NCBI GenBank assembly: GCA_025617745.1
Contig: CM046858.1
Location: 36,411,119 to 36,475,118 of the forward strand
Origin: Heliocidaris erythrogramma
Taxonomy: Eukaryota > Echinodermata > Echinoidea > Camarodonta > Echinometridae
DNA: 64,000 nucleotides
Direction of reading: 5' to 3'
The notes beneath the pieces are model-generated. The model did not search any database, was not told where the DNA came from, and saw only the letters and a program-made list of their open reading frames with translations. The position numbers and the translations under genes were made by a program. Numbering within the stretch: the stretch's first letter is position 1; each line of letters opens with the position of its first letter. Of the stretch, positions 28,901-36,969 are shown piece after piece.

Positions 28901-31900
28901 GTAGGGATCTGTTCTGTTTCACCATATATGGGCATTGATGCAAGGAGGTGGTTTTGAACTATTGTAATTGATTTGATTGACATTTGAGAGGAATCATGAC
29001 TACAAAGCATGTCAGTTTTGATTTGATCGCAAATGATAATTGTGTTGTTTATATTGTCATAGTGAGCTATTTTATTTAGAAGCAAACTTTAAAAAAAATA
29101 AGTTTGTTACTGGTTTTTAACCCCCAATTTAGTTGACATGTATTTGATTCCATCACGCTTGCAAACAAAAACACTTTGACCAGGAAAGTTTCAAGCATTT
29201 TAAGGGTAAATCTCAGTGACATTCTTCAAAATCAAAAGGAAAATTTATTTTGATATAGCAGAGATGACTCTTACAAAGGAGAATTGTCAACTGAGAATGT
29301 ATAGATAGTATGATTATATGTTTTTGTTTTTTATGGAGTAGGAAGTACATGTACATGTAGATCTGTAGCTTTAACATAAAATCCCGTGCATGGAAACCAA
29401 AACATTCAGAGCATAATATTTTTCATGATTGATCCACTGACCTCTACCACCTGGACGTTTCATTGGCTCAGAGAAGTGAAGTCGTGGTCCGCCATGTTGC
29501 ACTTCTGAAAAATCAACGCGCGAGAAAGCTGGAATACAGATTTGTCAACGATCATGCGGACGCCCATGCGGACGCCCATGGTCAAAACGCGCAGACAAGT
29601 ACAGATGTTCAGTGCGTAACTTGTAATAAACCACATCGCCCTCGGAAGAGTAACATGGCCCCGCCCACTTCAAGTGCTCGCACGCGCAGGAATGGGCGAT
29701 GATCCATCCAGGTGGTAGAGGTCAGTGGATTGATCCCCTTTAAATCAGTTTTATCATGAAATATAGTTTTGAAGAAAGTCTCAAGTTTTCTAGTAAAATT
29801 TCCTTTTCTTTAATTTGACTATACCTCGAAATTCTATTTCAATTCCATTATCATCATGTGCACAATTTTGTCACCATCCTTTTCTGTATAGGGTAAATCC
29901 GAAAGTGCAATAGCATCGAGTCAAGCCAACCCAAGGTCCAACTCTTCTACGACGACCATCGAGTCTCTGGTAATGAATGGCGGAGCGTCCAAGGCAAAGC
30001 TTCTAGATTTTGATTATCAGCAATATCATGTTGGAGAACACAAGCACTTCAAGCAGTAAGTGCTTGACTGGGATCTGTATTCCATGAATTTCCTAACAAA
30101 GAAGTTTAAAATTTACGGAACAGGGGTATGCAGAACTCTTTCTGACATGGGGTAGTGTTGAATGCTGTGAAATTTGCTCAGACCTGCAGGCTTGTCAATA
30201 GAACCCCCCAAAAAAAATCATTTACTGGACACCTTTGTTTTTTAAGTATTTGATATCATAATTTATGCAAGAATATATTCAACTAAAAAGGCCTTGAAAG
30301 AAAAAGAAAGAGCGAAAGTGGTTTGGTGTGAGATGAAATGGATTGAATGCGTTTCCATATTCTATGTAAATTTCTCCATTTGCCAAGTGTGAACGTGATT
30401 GATTGCATGTAAAGACCATATTTACTGTCAATCTAGGAATTGACATTTGATGGCCCCTTTAGGTGGGTATATTTTTCTGTCAACTGGAAGTTTCCACAGT
30501 AGTGTCTCTTCAAATGAACTAACCTTTTCAAATGTTTTTTTTTTCTCAATACCGGTACACTGTGCCTAATATAGATTTTCTATCAGTCACTATATTTTTT
30601 TGTACTGAAGAATCCAACGTATTTGTATCCAAGTTCGCAAAAGTTTTGATCCCAAGTTCTTTTCACCTATTATGTTACATGTACTTCTTTTATTTACAAT
30701 ATCAGGCCAAGCATCCTTGTGTTTGACTCGTTAGCTGGACCTCCAAGGAGAAATGTCATTGCCAAGCTGAGAGAGTGAGTACAATTTGCAAGCATATGTG
30801 CATGTACACATAAATTCGCAATGCGCGGTAATGGACATTTCTAGTTATGAACTGGCTTAATGGTGATTTTAAGATATATGCATTTCCCTTAATTTGTTGT
30901 TTTATCTCATAGTTTTATAAAATATGTAACAAACATTGTGGGGTCTATCCATAGAAATGTTCGAGCATGTTGACATAAAGAGAGCATGCATGAGACAAAT
31001 TGGATAAGACTCTACTCTTATTGTGACATTTGATTTCCCTGTTTAACCCTAATAGAGCCGGGTTATTTAGACCCATCTCATAGCCGGGGGGGGGGCTGAT
31101 TCTGCCCCCCCAAGATCTCGGCCGTCCACCGCGCATTCGCAATGAAAAATCGGCACACACGTCGCCGACCACGTAATCTACAAAACTGTATAGTCAATTT
31201 CTCCGAAAAATGTCACAACTAATTAATTATGCTAATTTATGCATAAAATTAATGGTTTGCTCTAATTAATTAAATAAATCCCCAAAACTGCTAATTTTTT
31301 GTATAGAGACTCTTTGTCAGATTCTGATCAAATAAACCAAAGAAAAAAATCGGTAAAATCCTTTTTTTCTTCTGTATTTTATTGTTTTTTAAATTTCTTA
31401 TGTATTTCTTTGTTTTCCGACTTTTTGTTTTTTATTGTTTTTTCGATGGAATTCGTCGGCGACACTATTTTAATCATAAACAACATACAATTAATTGTTT
31501 TTAAACAGTAAAAGTAAAAATAATGAAACATTTATGTTTTAGCTGGAAGCACAATTTGCATTGGATTTGTACATGAAATCACGTTTTTGAGCAATTTTGG
31601 GTCTGACATGCACTTGCGTAACTCCGGAACCGCACGCGCGGACATCACAAATTTGGTCTCAAAAGTTGCGCAAGACTTGAAAGAAAAAAGTAGTGAAGCG
31701 GCGTGCTGACTGCTTTTCGCGATGCAAACATATTACGCGAAACGTCGGATTCCGCCCCCCCCCCCCGGGCCTATTAGGGTTAAACCATGATGAGAACATC
31801 TTTGCTTGTTCCAACGTGAAGAGCATTACTTGAAAAATCTGAAAACTTTCATTGACACGTCCTTCTGTTTTCATTTGATACAGCTACTTGACGATAGAGT

Positions 31901-32570
31901 GGGAGAAGAGGAAAGAAGGGAAATGTGAGTTTACTACTGCCAACATGAAGGGCATGAATCCAAAGATACCTCAACAAAACAACTTCAGTGACTGTGGGCT
32001 TTATGTCTGCCAGTACGTAGAGACATTCTTTGAGGTAAGAACAAAGCTTAATTATGGTCCATCTCCAAGCATATACTTAATTTCGTACAAATTTTCATCG
32101 GGTAATATATTTGCTTCATGCTTTATTTCCTTAAGTTTAAATAGAGATAAAGGGTTTGGGGCGTAGCTTGCGATTGGGTTATAGGTTGGATTTACATGTA
32201 CAGTGAGGGATAGGGTTTAGTATAATGGTTGGTCCAGAATTGAAGTTAGGAGTTCAGTTTGTGGTAGAAACTATTTTTGCTGGAGCATCATATAAATTAT
32301 AATTTAAATGAATAATGAAAATGATATAAAAGTTGTTTGTCTATTGATATGAATTATTTATTATGAGAAATCATGTGGTATTATAGCACTATGCACAAAT
32401 TATTATATCTATTATCATATACCTTGCTCTTGCAGAAGCCTATAAGGAACTACCACTCACCGATGAGAGGGCTCCAGAATTGGTTTCCGGAGGAGGTTGT
32501 TGCCAAGAAGCGCCAAGAAATCTGCACCGCCATCCAGGAGCTTCATGAGGCATACAAAGTAAGGAGGTGA
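1832..32570 (+). CDS. SENP6/SENP7-like: SENP6/SENP7-like SUMO protease gene (21 visible exons, 5' end missing)
   Basis: This is a C48 (Ulp1/SENP) cysteine protease that trims poly-SUMO chains, probably in the nucleus. Exons with GT-AG borders and compatible phases are 1832-1952, 2411-2507, 4742-4893, 6349-6540, 6871-6948, 7902-8182, 9195-9292, 10024-10635, 11525-11608, 14791-14855, 15700-15910, 17312-17494, 18069-18188, 22740-22989, 24151-24270, 25166-25387, 28139-28769, 29892-30055, 30706-30774, 31884-32034 and 32436-32570. Together they give about 1345 residues. Order of domains: disordered Ser/Thr-rich N part with an RG box, a Cys4 knuckle and a SUMO-interacting motif, a PH-like pre-catalytic domain, then the split protease domain (YPPPP and [15 protein letters not shown] entry motif, [15 protein letters not shown]). 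The long insert between His and Asp is the mark of SENP6/7 rather than SENP1/2/3/5. Exon 1832 opens with two bases of a codon, so at least one more upstream exon exists. I see one frame break, in exon 10024-10635. Confidence 0.92.
2411..2507 (+). CDS. SENP6/SENP7-like: SENP6/7-like exon
   Basis: Preceded by CCTTGTAG and followed by GTAAAG. The first base completes the Asp codon begun in the previous exon, then [17 protein letters not shown] follows. EEVEVVS could act as a weak SUMO-interacting motif (acidic residues next to V-x-V-V), but this is only a pattern match. Confidence 0.65.
2566..3296 (+). mobile_element. Repeat family A, copy 1, with a nested MITE
   Basis: Ends AAGTTGAGTTCT and AGAACTCAACCTT. 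Shared family blocks: CTGTCTCAAATTGGGAAAGG at the left, GGCATTTGAAGAGCAATCC and TTCCAAATTGACATAA at the right. Related copies lie at 16672-17037, 23719-24023 and 39936-40810. A different element is inserted at 2689-3088. Confidence 0.75.
2689..3088. mobile_element. MITE nested in repeat family A copy 1
   Basis: AAATTCTCGCTACCTCAAAT and its near complement ATTTGGGGTAGCGAGAATTT are the ends. It interrupts family A between AAAAGTGAC and the GCACATGCACT block that is contiguous in copy 2. Confidence 0.75.
3358..3481. mobile_element. Short MITE, 17-base inverted ends
   Basis: TTACCATAATTCTGTAA and TTACAGAATTATGGTAA are exact complements; 124 bases of AT-rich interior. Confidence 0.75.
3683..3860 (+). 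mobile_element. tRNA-derived SINE fragment
   Basis: Head GAGGTGGTGTTGTCGAATGG with B box GGGTTCAAGTCCC at about 3731-3743, and the family body CACGTTAATCTACATTTG. The tail is lost. Same family as 54572-54927 but more diverged, hence older. Confidence 0.7.
4356..4495. mobile_element. Pogo/Tigger-like MITE, copy 1
   Basis: TACAGTCAAACTTGCTTTAG at the left, CAGGTTTAACTGTA at the right; TA target likely. Interior TAAAGACCACCTGCTCTTAA. Same family at 22515-22674 and 43000-43196. Confidence 0.78.
4742..4893 (+). CDS. SENP6/SENP7-like: SENP6/7-like exon
   Basis: Acceptor TTTTTTCTCCAG, donor GTTGGT (weak at position +3). It encodes a Lys/Ser-rich basic linker beginning [19 protein letters not shown] and ends with two bases (AG) completed to Ser by the next exon. 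Confidence 0.65.
5174..5894. mobile_element. Non-autonomous element, GGGCAATTCC ends
   Basis: GGGCAATTCCATGATTA and TAATCATGGAATTGCCC are exact inverted ends 721 bases apart. The interior contains GTAACGTTACTAA and a looser copy of it (GTAACGTGACTAC). No ORF of note. Confidence 0.72.
6088..6228. mobile_element. Foldback MITE (GTTTCATAAA ends) with shared core
   Basis: GGTCCCGTTTCATAAA and TTTATGAAACTGGGCC are the arms. The interior, read on the minus strand, has ATAAGCTACTGAAATCCTTG followed by CATCTGATTGG, which also forms the core of the otherwise different element 11101-11238. Confidence 0.8.
6231..6288. mobile_element. 58-base palindromic mini-element
   Basis: GGGCCCTCTTGCATAAAAAG pairs with TGTTTATGCAAGAGGGCTC; almost the whole unit is hairpin. 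It abuts the preceding foldback with only two bases between. Confidence 0.75.
6349..6540 (+). CDS. SENP6/SENP7-like: SENP6/7-like exon with RG-rich box
   Basis: Acceptor CATTTTAG, donor GTAAGA. After [20 protein letters not shown] it encodes an Arg-Gly run (seven RG pairs at about 6427-6471, then a second shorter RG patch). RG boxes commonly bind RNA or are targets of arginine methyltransferases. I do not know an RG box in vertebrate SENP6/7, so this may be lineage specific. The reverse strand is also open here only because of the repetitive purine composition. Confidence 0.7.
6871..6948 (+). CDS. SENP6/SENP7-like: SENP6/7-like short exon
   Basis: A 78-base exon after a TG-rich tract ending GGTTTTCTAG, donor GTTAGA. 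It continues the RG exon with [19 protein letters not shown]; phase fits on both sides (the GG left over from the previous exon gives Gly). Small, low-complexity, supported only by phase and borders. Confidence 0.55.
7023..7290. mobile_element. TA-flanked MITE with TTTCGCGAA interior
   Basis: TACTCTATATGCTATATATT at the left and TATAGCGCATACAGTA at the right; interior TTTTCGCGAATTTCGC. Related in style to 8474-8661. Confidence 0.6.
7672..7880. mobile_element. MITE with GGCCCGTATTCACGAA ends
   Basis: GGCCCGTATTCACGAAAGAG and TTTGTGAATTCGGGCCC are inverted; interior has GGTTTAAACCATG, GCGTAAATAAGCGCA and CCCATGCACG. Truncated relatives at 44588-44766 and 48781-48920. It ends about 20 bases before SENP exon 7902. 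Confidence 0.8.
7902..8182 (+). CDS. SENP6/SENP7-like: SENP6/7-like exon, Thr/Ser-rich linker
   Basis: Acceptor TTTTTATGTAG, donor GTATGT. 281 bases encoding a Thr/Ser/Asn-rich disordered segment ([18 protein letters not shown] onward) ending ATATESKKE. It directly follows a foldback MITE that ends at 7880, only about 20 bases before the exon. Confidence 0.65.
8474..8661. mobile_element. TACTRTAAAAC MITE
   Basis: TACTATAAAACCAGAAATGT at the left, TTTCTGGATTTGCAGTA at the right, with CATGAAACTTTCG and GCGAAAGTTTC inside. Relatives at 15240-15376 and 25971-26148. Confidence 0.72.
9195..9292 (+). CDS. SENP6/SENP7-like: SENP6/7-like exon
   Basis: Acceptor TTATTGCAG, donor GTAACT. Encodes [20 protein letters not shown] and ends in phase 0 with SPKEPL. 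Ser-rich, disordered. Confidence 0.65.
9772..9889. mobile_element. Tc1/mariner-type MITE
   Basis: TACAGTGCCTCAAAAA and TTTTTGGATGCACTGTA at the ends, TA target. 118 bases. Confidence 0.72.
10024..10635 (+). CDS. SENP6/SENP7-like: SENP6/7-like exon with Cys4 knuckle; contains a frame break
   Basis: Acceptor CTTCCTGTAG, donor GTGAGT. It opens with [17 protein letters not shown] followed by TFC: a C-x2-C-x9-C-x2-C spacing typical of a zinc knuckle or ribbon, then a basic patch ([11 protein letters not shown]). The first frame stays open to a stop near 10312. The reading then has to move to another frame to continue as [17 protein letters not shown] and reach the donor with the right phase. Exon length is 612, whereas the phases of its neighbours require length 1 mod 3, so one base appears to be missing; the GGG run near 10288-10291 is the likeliest place. 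I could not find a convincing small intron (the possible ones are 28 to 57 bases). A sequencing or assembly slip is more likely than a real break, because every later exon keeps its frame. Confidence 0.7.
11101..11238. mobile_element. Foldback MITE with 39-base perfect arms
   Basis: GGGGAGCGTTTCATCAAGCG onward to 11139 is repeated as an exact complement at 11200-11238. The core carries ATAAGCTACTGAAATCCTTG and CATCTGATTGG. Perfect arms suggest a young insertion. Confidence 0.88.
11525..11608 (+). CDS. SENP6/SENP7-like: SENP6/7-like exon with SUMO-interacting motif
   Basis: Acceptor TTCACCTGCAG, donor GTAAAA. Encodes [14 protein letters not shown]: a hydrophobic I-V-L-I core followed by phospho-type Ser-Asp-Ser and a run of acidic residues, a textbook type SUMO-interacting motif. 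SENP6 and SENP7 carry several such motifs, which let them grip SUMO2/3 chains. Confidence 0.8.
11708..11908. mobile_element. Foldback MITE (GGGGGGTGTTTCAC family), right end lost
   Basis: Begins GGGGGGTGTTTCACAAAAGT, shares GCACGCATCCCCTAAGCACG and GTGATGCGTAATA with 24842-25043, and fades after AACTAAACTC. Confidence 0.7.
12240..14015. repeat. Complex repeat block with long direct repeats
   Basis: Blocks at about 12400-12535 and 13880-14015 share TTTTTCAAG(A/G)TCATCAG, GTGACGTCATCCAG(A/G)CGCC, ATTTTGTGAAA/ATTTTGTAAAG and an ATCGT..TATCTTC stretch. Between them CGCGCACGTACGCGCGCG-type tracts, several TGACGTCATC motifs and the tRNA-like module at 13537 occur. An exact dyad GTGATCTGTCG.TAG.CGACAGATCAC starts the block. 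I read it as an old non-autonomous repeat, family unknown. Confidence 0.6.
13537..13618 (+). mobile_element. tRNA-like module with poly(T)
   Basis: GGTTCGATCCCC at about 13578 is a strict B box, preceded by TTGGTCAAAGCACTTGACTC (D-arm and anticodon-arm like) and followed by GGTGGGTCC and a run of 16 T. The acceptor 5' strand does not pair well, so this is a tRNA-derived SINE piece and not a tRNA gene. Confidence 0.55.
14050..14335. repeat. ATC/ATT trinucleotide microsatellite
   Basis: About 285 bases of imperfect (ATC)n and (ATT)n with short reversals to (GAT)n. Both strands are open through it only because the trinucleotides contain no stop in some frames. Confidence 0.95.
14688..14790. repeat. 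TC-rich simple repeat before a SENP exon
   Basis: CTCTCT and TTTTTCTC repeats with a short TATATATA core, directly upstream of exon 14791, where they serve as polypyrimidine tract. Confidence 0.9.
14791..14855 (+). CDS. SENP6/SENP7-like: SENP6/7-like short exon
   Basis: 65 bases after a long TC-rich tract (14688-14788) that doubles as the polypyrimidine tract; donor GTAAGA. Encodes [19 protein letters not shown] and RDQ, phase correct on both sides. Confidence 0.7.
14935..15232. other. GC-rich unidentified block in a SENP intron
   Basis: This 300-base block is much richer in CpG than the intron around it and is open on both strands. It contains GCGGCCGTGGGG, AACGCGTCCGTCGGACTGC and GCCCGGCGACCAG. 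It has sharp edges, but I found no inverted ends or promoter boxes. It may be a repeat head of unknown origin. Confidence 0.4.
15240..15376. mobile_element. TACTRTAAAAC MITE, partial
   Basis: Carries AATTTCGCGATTGG, GTGAAAGCTTCTTGCTGTGA and ends TTTCTGGTTTTATACTA. The left terminus is degraded. Confidence 0.62.
15700..15910 (+). CDS. SENP6/SENP7-like: SENP6/7-like exon, start of PH-like region
   Basis: Acceptor TTGTATTTACAG, donor GTAAGT. Encodes [13 protein letters not shown] then a conserved-looking beta-rich part ([30 protein letters not shown]) that resembles the PH-like domain located before the catalytic domain in SENP6/7. Confidence 0.8.
16448..16489 (+). repeat. Poly(T)-poly(G) junction
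   Basis: About 28 T followed directly by about 11 G. Comparable T-to-G steps occur at 2084-2105 and 59167-59203, and the complement (C run then A run) at 44972-44996. Confidence 0.9.
16672..17037 (+). mobile_element. Repeat family A, copy 2 (no large nested insert)
   Basis: Carries AAGTTGAGTTGGTCATGAGA at the left, GGGAAAGGTTGATTAT, GCATTTGAAGAGCAATCC and ends AGAACTCGACCTT. Length 366, the closest to a plain copy of the family. Confidence 0.75.
17312..17494 (+). CDS. SENP6/SENP7-like: SENP6/7-like exon, PH-like region continued
   Basis: Acceptor TATCTCTGCAG, donor GTATGT. Encodes [33 protein letters not shown] and [19 protein letters not shown]. Beta strands plus a terminal helix fit the second half of the PH-like domain of this family. 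Confidence 0.82.
18069..18188 (+). CDS. SENP6/SENP7-like: SENP6/7-like exon
   Basis: Acceptor TCTTTTTGCCAG, donor GTAAGT. Encodes [17 protein letters not shown] and a helix [17 protein letters not shown]. Links the PH-like domain to the protease entry. The next intron, 4.5 kb, holds a hAT element, a foldback element and the reverse-strand MADF gene. Confidence 0.8.
18237..18307. mobile_element. 71-base deletion derivative of the TAGACC MITE
   Basis: TAGACCGCTTCTATAATGTA at the left and TACATTACCAAAGCGGTCTA at the right match the ends of 40513-40753, but the interior is nearly gone. Confidence 0.75.
18860..19656. mobile_element. hAT non-autonomous element with perfect 8-base target duplication
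   Basis: Ends TAGGGCTGGGA (18860) and TCCCACCCCTA (to 19656) are inverted and typical of hAT. The eight bases CTGATTAG occur immediately on both sides (18852-18859 and 19657-19664). The ends continue with CCCGGG/TTCGGG-rich subterminal sequence. No transposase remains in the 797 bases. Confidence 0.88.
19747..19992. mobile_element. Foldback MITE, arms about 105 bases
   Basis: GGGGTTGGTGTCACTAAAC at 19747 and GTTTAGTGACGCCAGCCCC ending at 19992 begin two arms that pair for about 105 bases (TTTTCTAGTTAATTTAGAAT, TGATATTTGG). Transcribed within the SENP intron it would form a long hairpin. Confidence 0.85.
20609..21938 (-). CDS. MADF-type DNA-binding protein nested in a SENP intron (one frameshift)
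   Basis: The minus strand is open from the ATG at 21936-21938 to a stop at 20994 (314 residues), and a shifted frame continues to a stop at 20609. Residues 1-80 are Ala/Pro-rich. Residues 82-172 form a MADF/Myb-SANT-like helix-turn-helix domain ([36 protein letters not shown]). A Gln/Pro-rich repeat (LQPATLQP) and a coiled stretch follow. The downstream frame, [16 protein letters not shown] to [18 protein letters not shown], looks like the natural C-terminus, so one small indel near 21010-21020 separates them, giving a protein of about 440 residues. There are no introns. Such proteins are common as accessory genes of PIF/Harbinger-like transposons and as domesticated copies; I see no transposase partner or clear terminal repeats. 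GC content is well above the surrounding intron, which suggests an inserted gene. Confidence 0.75.
22019..22030 (-). promoter_or_regulatory. TATA box of the intronic MADF gene
   Basis: On the minus strand the sequence AGTATATATAGCGC lies about 85 bases upstream of the MADF start codon, leaving room for a transcription start near 21990 and a short leader. A compact TATA-type promoter directly in front of an intronless ORF supports independent transcription. This is inferred from sequence only. Confidence 0.5.
22046..22091. repeat. Perfect 19-base inverted repeat upstream of the MADF gene
   Basis: ACGGGTGCGGCATGTGCGC at 22046-22064 is repeated as its exact reverse complement at 22073-22091, with an 8-base spacer. 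It lies just upstream of the TATA box. It could be a cruciform, an operator-like dyad for a protein dimer, or a subterminal transposase site. Confidence 0.85.
22515..22674. mobile_element. Pogo/Tigger-like MITE, copy 2
   Basis: Interior AAGACCACCTGCTCATAAGG and right end CAGGTTTCACTGTA. The left terminus is truncated. It lies 65 bases before SENP exon 22740. Confidence 0.72.
22740..22989 (+). CDS. SENP6/SENP7-like: SENP6/7-like exon
   Basis: Acceptor TTTCTCTCTCAG, donor GTAAGT. Encodes a basic, Thr-rich linker ([31 protein letters not shown]) leading into the protease. KAVILTRS and the flanks lack strong acidic residues, so I do not call a second SIM. Confidence 0.75.
23203..23490. mobile_element. 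Foldback MITE with long CCCCGGGG-bearing arms
   Basis: ATATGATGCACCACGCGTTA at 23203 pairs with TAACACGTGGTGCATCATAT ending at 23490; the arms run about 85 bases and include TACCCCGGGGTA. Also AAATAAAATG(C/G)CGTTC occurs twice as an internal direct repeat. Confidence 0.85.
23719..24023 (-). mobile_element. Repeat family A, copy 3
   Basis: Reverse orientation of the family: AAGGTTCAGTTCTGGGAAAG at the left, GGATTGCTCCTGAAATGCCC, CAACCTTTCCCAATTGCTTT and GACTTTATCTTG at the right. It lacks the inserts seen in copy 4 and so shows the empty site. Confidence 0.75.
24151..24270 (+). CDS. SENP6/SENP7-like: SENP6/7-like exon, protease domain entry
   Basis: Acceptor TTGTCATTGCAG, donor GTAAGT. Encodes [16 protein letters not shown] and [18 protein letters not shown]. 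The YPPPP ... GGI and [11 protein letters not shown] strings are hallmark residues of the SENP6/7 catalytic domain N-lobe that contacts SUMO. Confidence 0.95.
24684..24709 (+). repeat. 26-base intronic copy of SENP catalytic exon sequence
   Basis: The intron carries an exact 26-base copy of exon positions 25177-25202 (starts TGGAGAAACTGAG, ends TTGACCGG), 493 bases upstream of the source. Similarity stops abruptly on both sides. It has no splice acceptor of its own and would not be spliced in. Confidence 0.85.
24842..25043. mobile_element. Foldback MITE (GGGGGGTGTTTCAC ends)
   Basis: GGGGGGTGTTTCACAAAGAG at the left and CTCTTAGTGAAACACCCCCC at the right; interior CGCGCATCCCCTGAGCATGA, GTGATGCGTCATA. 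A second copy is at 11708-11908. Confidence 0.82.
25045..25105 (-). mobile_element. SINE body fragment
   Basis: The stretch GGTACCCATTTACACCTGGG, then GAGTGGCAAATGTAGATTGA and TCTTGCCAAAGGACG, matches the body of the SINE at 54572-54927 in the same strand. Only about 60 bases remain, abutting a foldback MITE that ends at 25043. Confidence 0.7.
25166..25387 (+). CDS. SENP6/SENP7-like: SENP6/7-like exon, protease domain
   Basis: Acceptor TTTTATCAG, donor GTGAGT. Encodes [46 protein letters not shown] and IIIPIND. The F-Y-K-R-L and R-H-V-x-I-F-x-K-D-F-I-I-P motifs match the C48 fold just before the catalytic His. A 26-base exact copy of 25177-25202 lies in the preceding intron at 24684-24709. 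Confidence 0.95.
25590..25780. mobile_element. Partial MITE of the pogo-like type
   Basis: Right end AATTTTGACTGTA; interior repeats GGTGGCCGCTATA, GTGACCGCTATATGAA and GGCTGCTATAGACAGG. The left end is not clear. Confidence 0.45.
25971..26148. mobile_element. TACTRTAAAAC MITE
   Basis: TACTGTAAAACTAGAAACAT and TTCTTGTTTTACAGTA ends, interior GCGAAAGTTTCATGC. The best preserved copy of the three. Confidence 0.75.
26439..27692 (+). mobile_element. hAT-like element with transposase N-terminal fragment
   Basis: Inverted ends CAGAGCTGCCAACC and GGTTGGCAGCTCTG; the six bases GAAATT flank both directly (26433-26438 and 27693-27698). Inside, the plus strand frame 26757-27170 contains [19 protein letters not shown] and a C-x-C pair (FAFCMCK), resembling the start of a BED-type zinc finger as found at the N-terminus of hAT transposases; the catalytic part is absent. 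1254 bases, in the SENP intron before exon 28139. Confidence 0.7.
28139..28769 (+). CDS. SENP6/SENP7-like: SENP6/7-like exon with catalytic His and Ser/Pro-rich insert
   Basis: Acceptor TTCAACTTAG, donor GTAATT. The junction gives [13 protein letters not shown]; the His of the AHW motif is the catalytic base. The exon then runs about 195 residues of Ser, Pro, Thr, Ala and Asn with short reiterations ([18 protein letters not shown]), followed by acidic patches ([18 protein letters not shown]). This is the loop that splits the catalytic domain in SENP6/7, and its position between His and Asp is diagnostic. Confidence 0.92.
29432..29730. mobile_element. Non-autonomous element with 24-base perfect inverted ends
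   Basis: ATCCACTGACCTCTACCACC TGGA and its exact complement ending at 29730. The interior is GC-rich with CGCGCA motifs and a tandem CATGCGGACGC pair at about 29553-29579. A plus strand open frame exists (29463-29702) but has no family resemblance. Confidence 0.8.
29892..30055 (+). CDS. SENP6/SENP7-like: SENP6/7-like exon, insert end
   Basis: Acceptor TTTCTGTATAG, donor GTAAGT. Encodes [19 protein letters not shown] and then [19 protein letters not shown], returning from the disordered insert to the folded domain. Confidence 0.8.
30706..30774 (+). CDS. SENP6/SENP7-like: SENP6/7-like exon with catalytic Asp
   Basis: Acceptor TTACAATATCAG, donor GTGAGT. Encodes [20 protein letters not shown] and KLRE. 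The Asp of FDS is the catalytic triad Asp, followed by the usual Gly-Pro turn and helix. Confidence 0.93.
31047..31779 (+). mobile_element. TTAA-flanked (piggyBac-like) non-autonomous element, copy 1
   Basis: Ends CCCTAATAGAGCCGGG and CCCGGGCCTATTAGGG, each bordered by TTAA (31043-31046 and 31780-31783). TTAA duplication with CCC ends fits piggyBac. 733 bases, no coding capacity, in the SENP intron between the Asp and Cys exons. Confidence 0.85.
31884..32034 (+). CDS. SENP6/SENP7-like: SENP6/7-like exon with catalytic Cys
   Basis: Acceptor TTTGATACAG, donor GTAAGA. Encodes [35 protein letters not shown] and [12 protein letters not shown]. The Q of PQQNN (oxyanion hole) and the C of SDCG (nucleophile) are both present, so the triad is complete and the enzyme is predicted to be active. 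Confidence 0.95.
32436..32570 (+). CDS. SENP6/SENP7-like: SENP6/7-like terminal exon
   Basis: Acceptor TGCTCTTGCAG; stop TGA at 32568-32570. Encodes [18 protein letters not shown] and [20 protein letters not shown], then YKVRR. This is the usual C-terminal helix of the SENP6/7 domain (the NWFP motif matches). The last 50 bases of this exon are the founder of the tandem array that follows. Confidence 0.92.
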   Translation, partial: KPIRNYHSPMRGLQNWFPEEVVAKKRQEICTAIQELHEAYKVRR

Positions 32571-33260
32571 CATGACTCGAGGGTACCCTGGGCCTCCTGG
32601 GGACCAGGGAAAGTAACCCCACCATAACCAAGATGCCATCCACTTTTATACATGGTAAGATCTGTACAGCCATCCAGGAGATCCGCTGGTAAGGAGGTGA
32701 CACGGCTCAAGGGTACCCTAGACCTCTCGGGAACCAGGGAAAGCAACCCATACGTAACCGAGACACTATGGATTTTTGTAAACGGTGAAATCTACAGTGC
32801 CATCCAGGACCTGGAAGCGGAATACAAAGCAAGGTGGTGCCATGACCAAGGGTACCTTGGGCCTCTGGGGAACCAGGGAAAGTAACCCCACCATAACCAA
32901 GATGCAATTGACTTTTATACATGTTAAGATCTGTACAGCCATCCAGGAGGCCCGATGGTAAGGAGGTGACACGGCTCAAGGGTACCCTAGACCTCTCGGG
33001 AACCGGGGAAAGCAACCCATACGTAACCGAGACACTATGGATTTTTGTACACGGTGAAATCTACAGTGCCATCCAGGACCTGGAAGCGGAATACAAAGCA
33101 AGGTGGTGCCATGACCAAGGGTACCTTGGGCCTCTGGGGAACCAGGGAAAGTAACCCCACCATAACCAAGATGCAATTGACTTTTATACATGGTAAGATC
33201 TGTACAGCCATCCAGGAGCTGCAGGAGACGTACAAAGCAAAGAGGCAGCATGATTGATGG
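32519..33260 (+). repeat. Tandem array derived from the SENP terminal exon and 3' flank
   Basis: The block CATCCAGGAG/C recurs at 32531, 32671, 32801, 32940, 33070 and 33209: spacings 140, 130, 139, 130, 139. Units therefore alternate between two types, and the higher-order period is exactly 269 (32671 to 32940 to 33209, and 32801 to 33070). The first unit is the coding 3' end of the last SENP exon; the later ones keep a recognisable version of its peptide ([14 protein letters not shown] versus EIYSAIQDLEAEYK) and of the flank (GGTACC, ACCAGGGAAAG, CCATAACCAAGATG). The two 269-base dimers are nearly identical, which points to recent unequal exchange. Confidence 0.9.
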
Positions 33261-33724
33261 GCACCCTGGGCCTCTCAGGAAAATGGGAAACCAACCCATA
33301 CATGATCAAGATGTCATGGACTTTTACATACAGTATTTTCTGCATAGGGTACTGATACAGCTTTAATATTTAGCACAACTAGGGTGTCTATGCTATTTCT
33401 TTATACATGCAACTAAAGCATCTTTGTGTGATAAGCAACCTTTGGTCACAATCAGATTTCCTTTGTTAAGATGGGAAAGGAAATGAATGCACGTATATGT
33501 ATATCTTTTTTTAAAAAACATTTTATATTGTAGGATGATTATTACTTGGCACTGTGGATGGTTGCCATTAACATTGAATTCTTATTGTGATTTCAATTTA
33601 AATATTCTGTCGAAAAGATTTAAACTTTATGTTGTGGGTAGCAGGCCACTTGCTCATCTGAACTTTAAAACCTCCCCACACCCCTCCTCCGGTTAAATCA
33701 GATATCAAAACATTGCCTGTAAGG

Positions 33725-34009
33725 AAAAGTAGTTAATAGAGGAGATACTTACTTATGCCCGTCACTCCTCCAGGAGCATAGGCCGCTAAGAACAGTCCGC
33801 CAGATTCCTCGGTCCTGGGCTGCCCTCTCTAACTGTTCCCAGGTGTGTCCCATCTTCTTGCTGTCTGCCTCAAGGTCGCGTCGCCAGGTGTTTTCCGTCT
33901 TCCTTGGCCGGCCTCTTTTCCGTCTTCCTTGGGGATTCACGTCCTCTTGATGAGGGCCCTTCCTCTCCCAGGGTAAAGGTTTTTTGGTCTGTTCTTAGCG
34001 TTTCTGTAA

Positions 34010-34046
<37 letters not shown>

Positions 34047-34135
34047 GGGATGGGGTTGTTAACCCCATGCCCAACCCTCCTCCTTCATCCGGGCTTGGGA
34101 CCGGCTGTCTATTTCCCAAAGGATACATCCAGGCG
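33725..34135 (-). mobile_element. Internally deleted LINE (RTE-like) remnant
   Basis: On the minus strand NPQGRRKRGRPRKTENTWRR, DLEADSKKMGHTWEQLERAA and QDRGIWRTVLSGL form the familiar C-terminal tail of an endonuclease-reverse transcriptase ORF2, ending with a stop at 33749. The upstream part holds a leader-type segment (GGGGTTAACAACCCCATCCC, then an A run of about 29, then CTGTTACAGAAACGC) normally found near the 5' end of such elements. The whole middle of the element is missing, so the copy is a deletion derivative. Confidence 0.75.
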
Positions 34136-35006
34136 GAGTTAGAGGATATACGTGTACCCTGAAATGACTACTATGCACAATGATCTCTGAACAAGACAAT
34201 TTACATTTCACCTGTTCTTCAACTACCACCACTGTCTGTTATGGGGTTTGAAGTTATTAGTCCATATTAAAAGATTGTTTGAATCACAATGTACTTGTGA
34301 TTGAATATGAGTTTTTATCATTTGGAGATCCTGAAAGTGATTGCAGTATACAGTGTATCTGATAATTTGGTAACATAGATCTTAAAGGTACTTTGTATTT
34401 TTATGACATGGTTGTTAAATCAGTTGAAATTGTTTATTTCTTTATCTTAAAAGGTAGAAACATCATTGCCTTTAAAAGTTTAAAAGACTATGATCAGTAT
34501 TTAGCAAGGTCAGCATTAATGTTCATTATCAATAAAAATAATATTTGCATTGCAAATTTTGCAATATTTACAAATGAAAGGTAAAGAGGACCTTTACTAC
34601 TTCCTTCGGAAAGCAAAGCATTGCTTCAATTTCTAATTTCTTTTTCGATGAGGTCCATTGAGATACGAAACACGTAATATATGTTCCTTAAAGATGACAG
34701 ATTTACATTCAGATATTTTTGCATAGTGTGATTATTCATTTATTTACGGTGGTGCGATTAAGGAGTATTAATTCGTTTTTACACGTCCAACAGCCTGGCT
34801 GATTTATAGCGATGTGCAGTAGAGACTACACATGTTCAGTACAGTCAGTATGCAAATATTATTTTACAGGGTTTCTAGATGTAGGCTACGGGTAGAGGAG
34901 TTTGTGAGAGTGCAGAGAATCTAAAGGTGCTCTTTCAAGGCCCATAGTGTTGAGAAATTAGCATTGTCTTGTAAACTCACTTAATTAAGAGTGTACATTG
35001 TATTAA

Positions 35007-35767
35007 CCCTAATAGGCCCGGGGGGGGGGGGGGGGGGGGGATACCGCCCCCCCTCGACGTTTCGGGTAATATGTTCGCATCGCAAAAAGCAGTCACCACG
35101 CCCCTTCACTACTTTTTTCTTTCAAGTCTTGCGCAACTTTTGAGACCAAATTTGTGATGTCCGCGCGTGCGGTTCCGGATTTACGCAACATTTCGTAAGT
35201 GCATGTCAGACCCAAAATTGCTCAAAAACGTGATTTCGTGTACAAATCCAATGCAAATTGTGTTTCCAGCTAAAATTCATAAATATTTCATTATTTTTAC
35301 TTTTACTGTTTAAAAACAATTAATTTTATGTTGTTTATGATTAAAATAGTGTCGCCGACGAATTCCATCGAAAAAACGATAAAAAACAAAAAGTCGAAAA
35401 ACAAAGAAATACATAAGAAATTAAAAAAACAATAAAATACATAAGAAAGGATTTTACCGAATTTTTTTTTTGGTTTATTTGATCAGAATCTGACAAAGGG
35501 TCTCTATACAAAAAATTAGCAGTTTTGGGGCTTTATTTAATTAATTAGAGCAAACCATTAATTTTATGCATAAATTAGCATAATTAATTAGTTGTGACAT
35601 TTTTCAGAGAAATTGACTATACAGTTTTGTAGATTACGTGGTCGGCGACGTGTGTGCCGATTTTCGTTGCGAATGCGCGGTGGACGGCCGAGATCTTAGG
35701 GGGGGGGCGGAATCAGCCCCCCCCCCCCGGCTGTGAGATGGGTCTAAATAACCCGGCTCTATTAGGG
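35007..35767 (-). mobile_element. TTAA-flanked (piggyBac-like) non-autonomous element, copy 2
   Basis: The same element in opposite orientation, flanked by TTAA (35003-35006 and 35768-35771). The two copies are nearly identical along their length (I estimate above 95 percent from the compared stretches), differing mainly in G/C run lengths and a few substitutions, so they moved recently. Confidence 0.88.
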
Positions 35768-36969
35768 TTAAAGGAATGTTGTTGGGGTTCACTGGGAAAG
35801 TCTAGAGAAGGTAATAGAAAGCCATGGGTTGTAACAGAATGTGTTGGAAGACATTGAACTTGAAGGTAGTTTCAGCAGTTTGCAAGCTATCATCATCAGT
35901 TTAGATGAAATTTAATATCTTCTACAAGAGAAACTGATAAACAGATGTGAAATTTTTGGACCAACAGCCCTTGAGAATTGTTTATAAGAAATCTAATAGC
36001 ATTATACATCCTCCCAGTCATAAGCAGTGAATACATGTCGGCCAGTATACATGTATGTGGGCAGGCATGTATTGTGTATTAAGAAAAGTCTCTGTTTGGC
36101 TATGCATATACATTCTTCATGTACCTCTGCAATATGATTGTAGGGCAATGCACAAGTCATGTATATTTTCGCATAAGAGGAGAGGGAGTTTAATAATATT
36201 TATCATTTTGACATTGAATTGAGAACAGCTTTTTTGAAAGGAAATTACCCTGCATTCAAATCAGTTTAATAAAATAATGGTTTCTCCAAAATATTAAATG
36301 ATATTTCATTTGAAAATAGTTTGACTTCACTAGTACAGTGTATTTTAATTCTACCATCTGCAATGCACAATGTACTTACATTGTATAATAATATACGTTT
36401 AAATGATTTGGTTTCTTCGTGTCTCGCTCTAAATGAGTGACTTGTTTTGTTCATTTATTCTGTCCAAATTTAATTGTATTTGCAATTTTAGTTACACCTG
36501 GGACAACTTTTTCATCGAAGATAGTTATTTAAAAAAAATGTAAGATTATTTATTGAAGTAGTTGGCTTTGTGCCGTATTGTTGAACCAGCGTGACGATAC
36601 GATTGTGACAGGAAGAAATTGTAAAAGCATCAATTTTCATACGTCTACTTCGTCGTGAGGCTGACAGGAGGGTGTGAGCGCTTTGCCATTATACAGAACG
36701 CATACAGGCAATATTGCAATATAAAGCAGAAGATCGTTTTTGAAATACCAATGACTTCAAAATCTGTGCTTATTTCATGCAAAACTACTAAAATTAGGTA
36801 GTTACCATCCATTTTCCACTAGTTGATGAAGAGAGAAATCCCCGTCAGGTTTAAAAGATGGTGTAAACATGTGTAGGGCAATCCAAATCTTAAAAGCGTG
36901 TAACCACAAGTTTGCTTCATGCCTGGCATGCGCGTGTGATAATGCCCTTCTGCCAGCAACACGACTTCG

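Follow-up and report, generated by a model that had tools for sequence, protein, structure and literature searches.

The gene end lying upstream of the array is that of an animal SUMO protease of the SENP6/7 type, on the plus strand of the window (the whole 64,000-nucleotide stretch analysed). Its penultimate exon (31885–32034, where 31885 marks the 5′ limit of the frame searched and not necessarily of the exon) bears the catalytic Cys (NFSDCGLY), matches Pfam Peptidase_C48 over residues 24–50 (E 1.1e-7), and is followed at 32035 by its native donor, GAG/GTAAGA. The terminal coding exon, as defined by translation, occupies 32436–32570 and closes with a TGA stop at 32568–32570. When joined, these C-terminal exons match the SENP7 structure PDB 3eay (E 1.5e-29), and the C-terminal helix of the terminal exon aligns with human SENP7 through KREDIRELILKLH.

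Six matches to CCATCCAGGA are found at 32530, 32670, 32800, 32939, 33069, and 33208, giving spacings of 140, 130, 139, 130, and 139. Tandem Repeats Finder reports 32517–33218 as a repeat of period 269 (2.6 copies, 93% matches, score 1218), so that the six-unit array described in the sequence-only reading is borne out, as is its origin in the end of the terminal exon, which is homologous to all six plus-strand units. Unit 1 (32517–32656; 140 bp) comprises the final 17 codons, the stop, and 86 bp of flank. Unit 2 (32657–32786; 130 bp) encodes KICTAIQEIRW before a stop and differs from unit 1 by a 10-bp gap in the helix region, while its sister, unit 4 (32926–33055; 130 bp), reads KICTAIQEARW and then a stop. 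Unit 3 (32787–32925; 139 bp), encoding EIYSAIQDLEAEYKARWCHDQGYLGPLGNQGK before a stop, and its sister unit 5 (33056–33194; 139 bp) both contain EIYSAIQDLEAEYKAR, which corresponds to a 21-residue stretch of the terminal exon. The frame following KAR continues for 16 codons (WCHDQGYLGPLGNQGK) to a stop at 32885, rather than the 29 formerly claimed. Unit 6 (33195–33333; 139 bp), with 20 residues and then a stop, is the most diverged and adjoins the downstream flank. The sisters are close, with 5 differences in 130 sites between units 2 and 4 and one in 139 between units 3 and 5, against 33–42 between adjacent units and 20–43 for the other non-sister pairs. This pattern of near-identical sisters and distant neighbours shows, as the earlier reading stated, that a dimer of two diverged units was amplified.

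A second SENP locus (G000:C6:35799435) resides on the same contig, 644 kb away. Its array keeps the unit order but is shorter by exactly one 269-bp dimer, so that unit number varies, four there against six here, within one assembly. Whole-genome DNA searches, which scored the best candidates and skipped very common words, located the array at these two loci only; a whole-genome search for the SENP C-terminal exons, again scoring the best candidates, returned the same two plus one match at E 0.9. The terminal exons of the two loci are separated by a single synonymous difference, at 32501. The collinear block surrounding the second locus stops 344 bp short of a 500-N gap, and the loci are therefore probably two haplotypes of one gene, a recent duplication being less likely.

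Comparison of the units of the array studied here (W) with those of the second locus (B) suggests that B2 arose by unequal exchange, which would have fused the left of W2 to the right of W4. All five sites that distinguish W2 from W4 split it, B2 being W2-like on the left (columns 25, 26, and 40) and W4-like on the right (90 and 135). The mosaic thus comprises five sites, of which the three on the left adjoin the 10-bp gap and could reflect a single event or the way the gap was placed. At column 139, the sole site separating W3 from W5, B3 agrees with W5. Within W, dimer 2-3 is distinguished from dimer 4-5 by 6 of 269 sites, a higher proportion than the 9 of 1377 at which the array surroundings differ from one locus to the other (Fisher P 0.024), or the 8 of 1092 with exons left out (P 0.041). 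Given equal mutation rates and no conversion, which this comparison presumes, the dimer copy would thus seem older than the split of the loci, and locus B would seem to have lost one dimer. Between loci the array itself (W1, 2, 5, and 6 against B1–4) differs at 7 of 494 sites, not significantly above its surroundings (P 0.15).

Most probably, the tail of the SENP6/7-type gene was copied into the flank downstream of it by a tandem duplication whose 5′ breakpoint fell within the final coding exon, at about codon E of EICTAIQ, and whose 3′ breakpoint lay some 86 bp beyond the stop. Two copies then diverged, and the 269-bp pair was amplified, presumably by unequal exchange, or by replication slippage. 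Because unit 1 retains the stop, units 2–6 would lie beyond translation, probably in the 3′ UTR, and be drifting.

It had been proposed that unequal exchange might supply alternative C-termini. The exchange is consistent with the mosaic unit; the supply of C-termini is not upheld, as both loci encode an identical exon end and stop, units 3 and 5 show no sign of constraint, and the available frame is no longer than chance would give. Against the exon, units 3 and 5 show dN close to dS (0.26 and 0.24 for unit 5, with eight of its nine changed codons non-synonymous); the unit 3/5 peptide shows no excess conservation, since 69% of trials that placed equal changes at random gave an equally conservative result. 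Within unit 5, the coding-homologous part has changed faster (12/54) than its flank (8/85; P 0.047). The longest forward stop-to-stop frame in 32571–33333 spans 85 codons, a length equalled or exceeded in 185 of 500 dinucleotide shuffles.

Some constraint is seen between unit 6 and the exon (dN 0.13, dS 0.78), which would fit past or rare coding use, and random changes are as conservative in 3.4% or 4.5% of trials, depending on direction and uncorrected for the pairs tested. The unit's non-synonymous codon count is unremarkable (P 0.24 and 0.22), its coding part (13/54) does not differ significantly from its flank (26/85; P 0.44), and this weak signal can be accounted for by selection acting solely on the branch of the exon. 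Very probably, then, the array is an exon-seeded minisatellite of variable copy number (six versus four units) whose repeated peptide is a leftover of the seed and not a C-terminus in use. It resembles an ordinary variable repeat beside a gene, not a store of alternative protein endings, and judged from the DNA would be without effect on the SENP protein.

The donor-like AAA/GTAAGG noted earlier in the exon's last codons (32556–32564, encoding K-V-R) is real, ranking at the 98.2 percentile among 3600 plus-strand GTs in the window by matrix score. Such a site might let the exon splice past its own stop, as was suggested, but acceptors in the array are mostly poor, and 3′ sites within the helix copies are weak. 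The predicted RNA fold of 32571–33333 is not unusual (z −1.16; 1 of 20 shuffles as good), nor are those of the four units folded out of six (z +2.1, 0.0, +1.2, and −0.6 for units 1, 2, 5, and 6). The earliest AATAAA past the SENP stop, a sequence motif on the plus strand, lies at 34531–34536, preceded by variants such as AATGAA (33482) and ATTAAA (34266); if this AATAAA or an earlier variant is the polyadenylation signal, the array falls, as is probable, in the 3′ UTR.

The terminal exon of the gene (32436–32570, plus strand, delimited by translation) contributes its last 17 codons to the start of a tandem array, the remainder of which follows the TGA. Unit alignment reveals six units on the plus strand, starting at 32517, 32657, 32787, 32926, 33056, and 33195 and measuring 140, 130, 139, 130, 139, and 139 bp, where the end of unit 6 is placed by assuming one unit length. 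A period of 269 was found independently with 93% matches, the monomers being 130–140 bp. Units 2 and 4, which both lack 10 bp of unit 1 in the region of the C-terminal helix, differ at 5/130 sites and units 3 and 5 at 1/139, whereas neighboring units differ at 33–42 sites and other pairs at 20–43. The near-identity of these pairs beside such diverged neighbors indicates that a diverged pair was amplified, which bears out the dimer proposed in the sequence-only reading. The G+C content of the array (0.51) equals that of the exon (0.51); both exceed the downstream flank (0.36) and the last intron (0.31). An AATAAA lies at 34531, and the array is probably situated, to judge from its position in the DNA, in the 3′ UTR, without effect on the protein. 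It is an exon-seeded, dimer-amplified tandem array that follows the stop of a SENP6/7-type gene and differs in copy number between two loci.

The host gene, on the plus strand of a window (contig C6, 36411119–36475118) from a 1.06-Gb genome of 26 contigs, resembles SENP6/SENP7 (Ulp2-type, C48 family) in possessing a C48 domain, the Cys motif, and the C-terminal helix. The Cys exon matches Pfam Peptidase_C48 (PF02902) at 32.3 bits (cut-off 20.7; E 1.1e-7); at E 1, Pfam gave no family for the terminal exon by itself or for the unit 3 peptide. Alignment of the C-terminal exons with human SENP7 (PDB 3eay; E 1.5e-29) spans chain residues 203–314 and includes the C-terminal helix, the human counterpart of which is KREDIRELILKLH. 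SENP7 chains rank best (E 1.5e-29 and 1.7e-29), and those of SENP5, SENP2, Ulp2, and SENP1 follow at E 6e-5 to 2.3e-4 among the ten PDB matches, all listed, in which a SENP6 chain is absent. By this measure the predicted host protein is nearer to SENP7 than to SENP1/2/5. The comparison with human SENP7 is one of proteins.

The array has the head-to-tail units of high identity of a variable-number minisatellite (VNTR). Textbook minisatellite units are 10–100 bp; since the present unit is longer, it constitutes a long minisatellite or a small tandem-duplication array. DAT1/SLC6A3 is described as carrying a 40-bp VNTR in its 3′ UTR (PMC4472402), with 3–11 repeats (PMC8502797). As so described, that VNTR is like the array in having tandem units past the stop codon and a variable copy number, in the array probably between alleles. 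The array differs in its longer unit (139/130 bp, with a 269-bp dimer), which takes in the final codons of the host coding sequence, in a 3′ UTR position that we infer, and in that the copy numbers compared come from two loci within one assembly and not from a population. The array is of a known kind, probably a 3′ UTR minisatellite, with an unusual seed. On present evidence it is an ordinary gene-adjacent repeat. It exemplifies cleanly the seeding of a repeat array by a coding exon, past that exon's own stop; a single assembly contains two states (six and four units) and a probable crossover footprint.

The second state was revealed by a genome search, which located a further copy of the exon with four units at C6:35799435, 644 kb upstream (locus B), exactly one dimer fewer than in the window. 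Genome searches placed the SENP insert exon at these two loci, and the C-terminal exons at the same two plus one match at E 0.9. Megablast of 163,882 bases (the first 63,882 of the window and another 100,000 lying downstream) on a 140,000-base stretch surrounding the second copy reveals a collinear block from approximately 1568 to 85,853, in which insertions intervene, the one between 59,332 and 73,812 being the largest. Plus-strand rows of the block exceeding 400 bp sum to 63,926 aligned positions, some repeats being counted twice, with 2.0% mismatches. In the second copy the right end of the block, at 35851775, falls 344 bp short of a 500-N gap (C6:35852119–35852618). This gap and the block at C6:35.77–35.85 Mb suggest an unpurged haplotig in the assembly. 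Locus B probably represents a second haplotype of this type, recent duplication being the less likely reading, and the two arrays are probably alleles.

At all five sites separating the second and fourth units of the window (W2 and W4), the second unit of locus B (B2) is W2-like on the left (columns 25, 26, and 40, which adjoin the 10-bp gap and may count as one) and W4-like on the right (90 and 135); B2 alone carries a change at a sixth variable site, 74. The third unit, B3, is W5-like at site 139 and carries a change of its own at 64. Exchange of unit 2 with unit 4 and loss of 269 bp would yield B2, and the mosaic suggests, on a thin argument, a product of unequal exchange. The two dimers of the window differ at 6/269 sites, compared with 9/1377 between the loci in nearby sequence (Fisher P 0.024), or 8/1092 once exons are removed (P 0.041). 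That the dimers have diverged more than the loci nearby suggests that the longer array may be older than the locus split, the argument again being thin. Array and locus B counterpart differ at 7/494 sites, which is not significantly above their surroundings (P 0.15).

One question is whether the repeated peptide matters. Between the exon and unit 5 there are 11 differing sites in 17 codons, and 8/9 changed codons are non-synonymous (dN 0.26, dS 0.24); simulation puts this in the centre of what neutral change would give, with P 0.69 in one direction and 0.63 in the other. Ten sites separate the exon from unit 6, six of them third-position (P 0.077 for the excess), with dN 0.13 and dS 0.78; the conservative nature of the changes gave P 0.034 and 0.045, uncorrected, and the count of non-synonymous codons P 0.24 and 0.22. 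Unit 5 against unit 6 gave P 0.29 and 0.48. Since the exon is itself under selection, the unit 6 pattern needs no coding role for unit 6. Protein selection on the repeated peptide was accordingly rejected, units 3 and 5 bearing no sign of it and that of unit 6 being weak and explicable. The open frame of 85 codons was likewise discarded as a signal, 185/500 shuffles equaling or exceeding it.

Recombination of unit 1 with a later unit within their shared CCATCCAGGA would keep the helix frame and swap the last residues, so that the array could serve as a reservoir of occasional new C-termini. Computed joins at CCATCCAGGA are in frame for units 2–6 and would end in ...AIQEIRW (unit 2), ...AIQEARW (unit 4), ...AIQDLEAEYKARWCHDQGYLGPLGNQGK (units 3 and 5), or ...AIQELQETYKAKRQHD (unit 6); copy number does change between the loci, and the unit 6 peptide is somewhat conserved. 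Against this, unit 1 is unchanged through the stop at 2/2 loci (0/54 sites differ), the whole terminal exon differing once, synonymously, at 32501, and the unit 3/5 peptide bears no sign of selection. We therefore consider such a reservoir very unlikely, and the alternative C-termini that the first inspection had envisaged lose ground. Were in-frame exchange with unit 1 to be found, it would mean repeat recombination editing the C-terminus of a conserved enzyme.

An additional donor might also be provided by the AAA|GTAAGG in the last codons: paired with an acceptor within the array or further downstream, it would create another C-terminus and excise some or all of the array from the mRNA. Sites were scored with a consensus splice matrix not trained on this species, percentiles being taken over the 3600 GTs and 3603 AGs of the window. 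The donor-like exon end noticed earlier (32559) does lie in the 98.2 percentile of GTs; CTG|GTAAGG of unit 2 reaches 99.8, as does the native donor, and ATG|GTAAGG of unit 4 99.6. Acceptors at 33279 (unit 6; score 4.0, percentile 97.9) and 32608 (unit 1; 3.4, 97.0) compare with 3.9 and 97.9 for the native one, which lies outside the unit because the repeat starts inside the exon. Joining 32558 to 33279 would give ...AYKENGKPTHT, and to 32808 or 33077 ...AYKDLEAEYKARWCHDQGYLGPLGNQGK, in frame. However, scores such as these are reached by about 2% of the GTs and AGs of the window, GTAAGG is lost from units 3, 5, and 6, and, apart from the two acceptors at the 97th percentile, those in the array are weak (−0.8 to 0.0 for the helix copies of units 2–6; −7.0 and −4.9 for the CTACAG ones). 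A stop-skipping intron can be drawn on paper; its use we regard as very unlikely. There is equally little likelihood that the array is a living reservoir in which in-frame unequal exchange or AAA|GTAAGG splicing gives individuals different C-terminal helices.

That the array length or second locus is a misassembly artefact is very unlikely: ending 344 bp before an N gap is the usual sign of an unpurged haplotig, but that would be an error of placement, leaving both array versions as real alleles, and units diverged at up to 43/138 sites, with private sites at each locus, would hardly arise by the stuttering of one sequence.

We rejected derivation of the unit from a transposon or dispersed repeat, whole-genome DNA searches, which skip very common words and score the best candidates only, having returned only the two SENP loci. 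RNA structure gave no signal, unit 1 folding worse than 199/200 of its own shuffles. Rfam at E 1 over 31000–35000 found nothing within the array, and at gathering score nothing in the window or in the sequences L006 and L007. A bacterial promoter and terminator scan of 32500–33400, unsuited to an animal genome, was likewise empty. Among the papers listed in the literature searches, no title or opening of an abstract mentioned such an array, which is not proof of its being unpublished, and a search for work on SENP7 in sea urchins found no paper.

Downstream of the array, the type-P1 twister model RF03160 matches 34071–34145 on the minus strand (59.5 bits, E 4e-12), below its gathering score of 67.2, near a 31-base T run (34014–34044). 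It also matches C6:35800703–35800777 and five more places, on C1, C3, C9, C13, and C15, that is, at least seven places in the genome at E 0.001, none above the cut-off; as 62 of 42141 candidates were scored, seven is a lower bound. A minus-strand open frame (33749–33994) ends in GRPRKTENTWRRDLEADSKKMGHTWEQLERAAQDRGIWRTVLSGLCSWRSDGHK, which we take to resemble C-terminal tails from non-LTR retrotransposon proteins. Frame, ribozyme-like match, and A/T run may together be one retroelement remnant 3′ of the array. An element of approximately 770 bp lies at 31042–31792 and, inverted, at 34996–35772 of the window; the matches listed show it a single time in the second copy, at another position. This placement suggests a mobile element that has inserted differently in the window and in the second copy.
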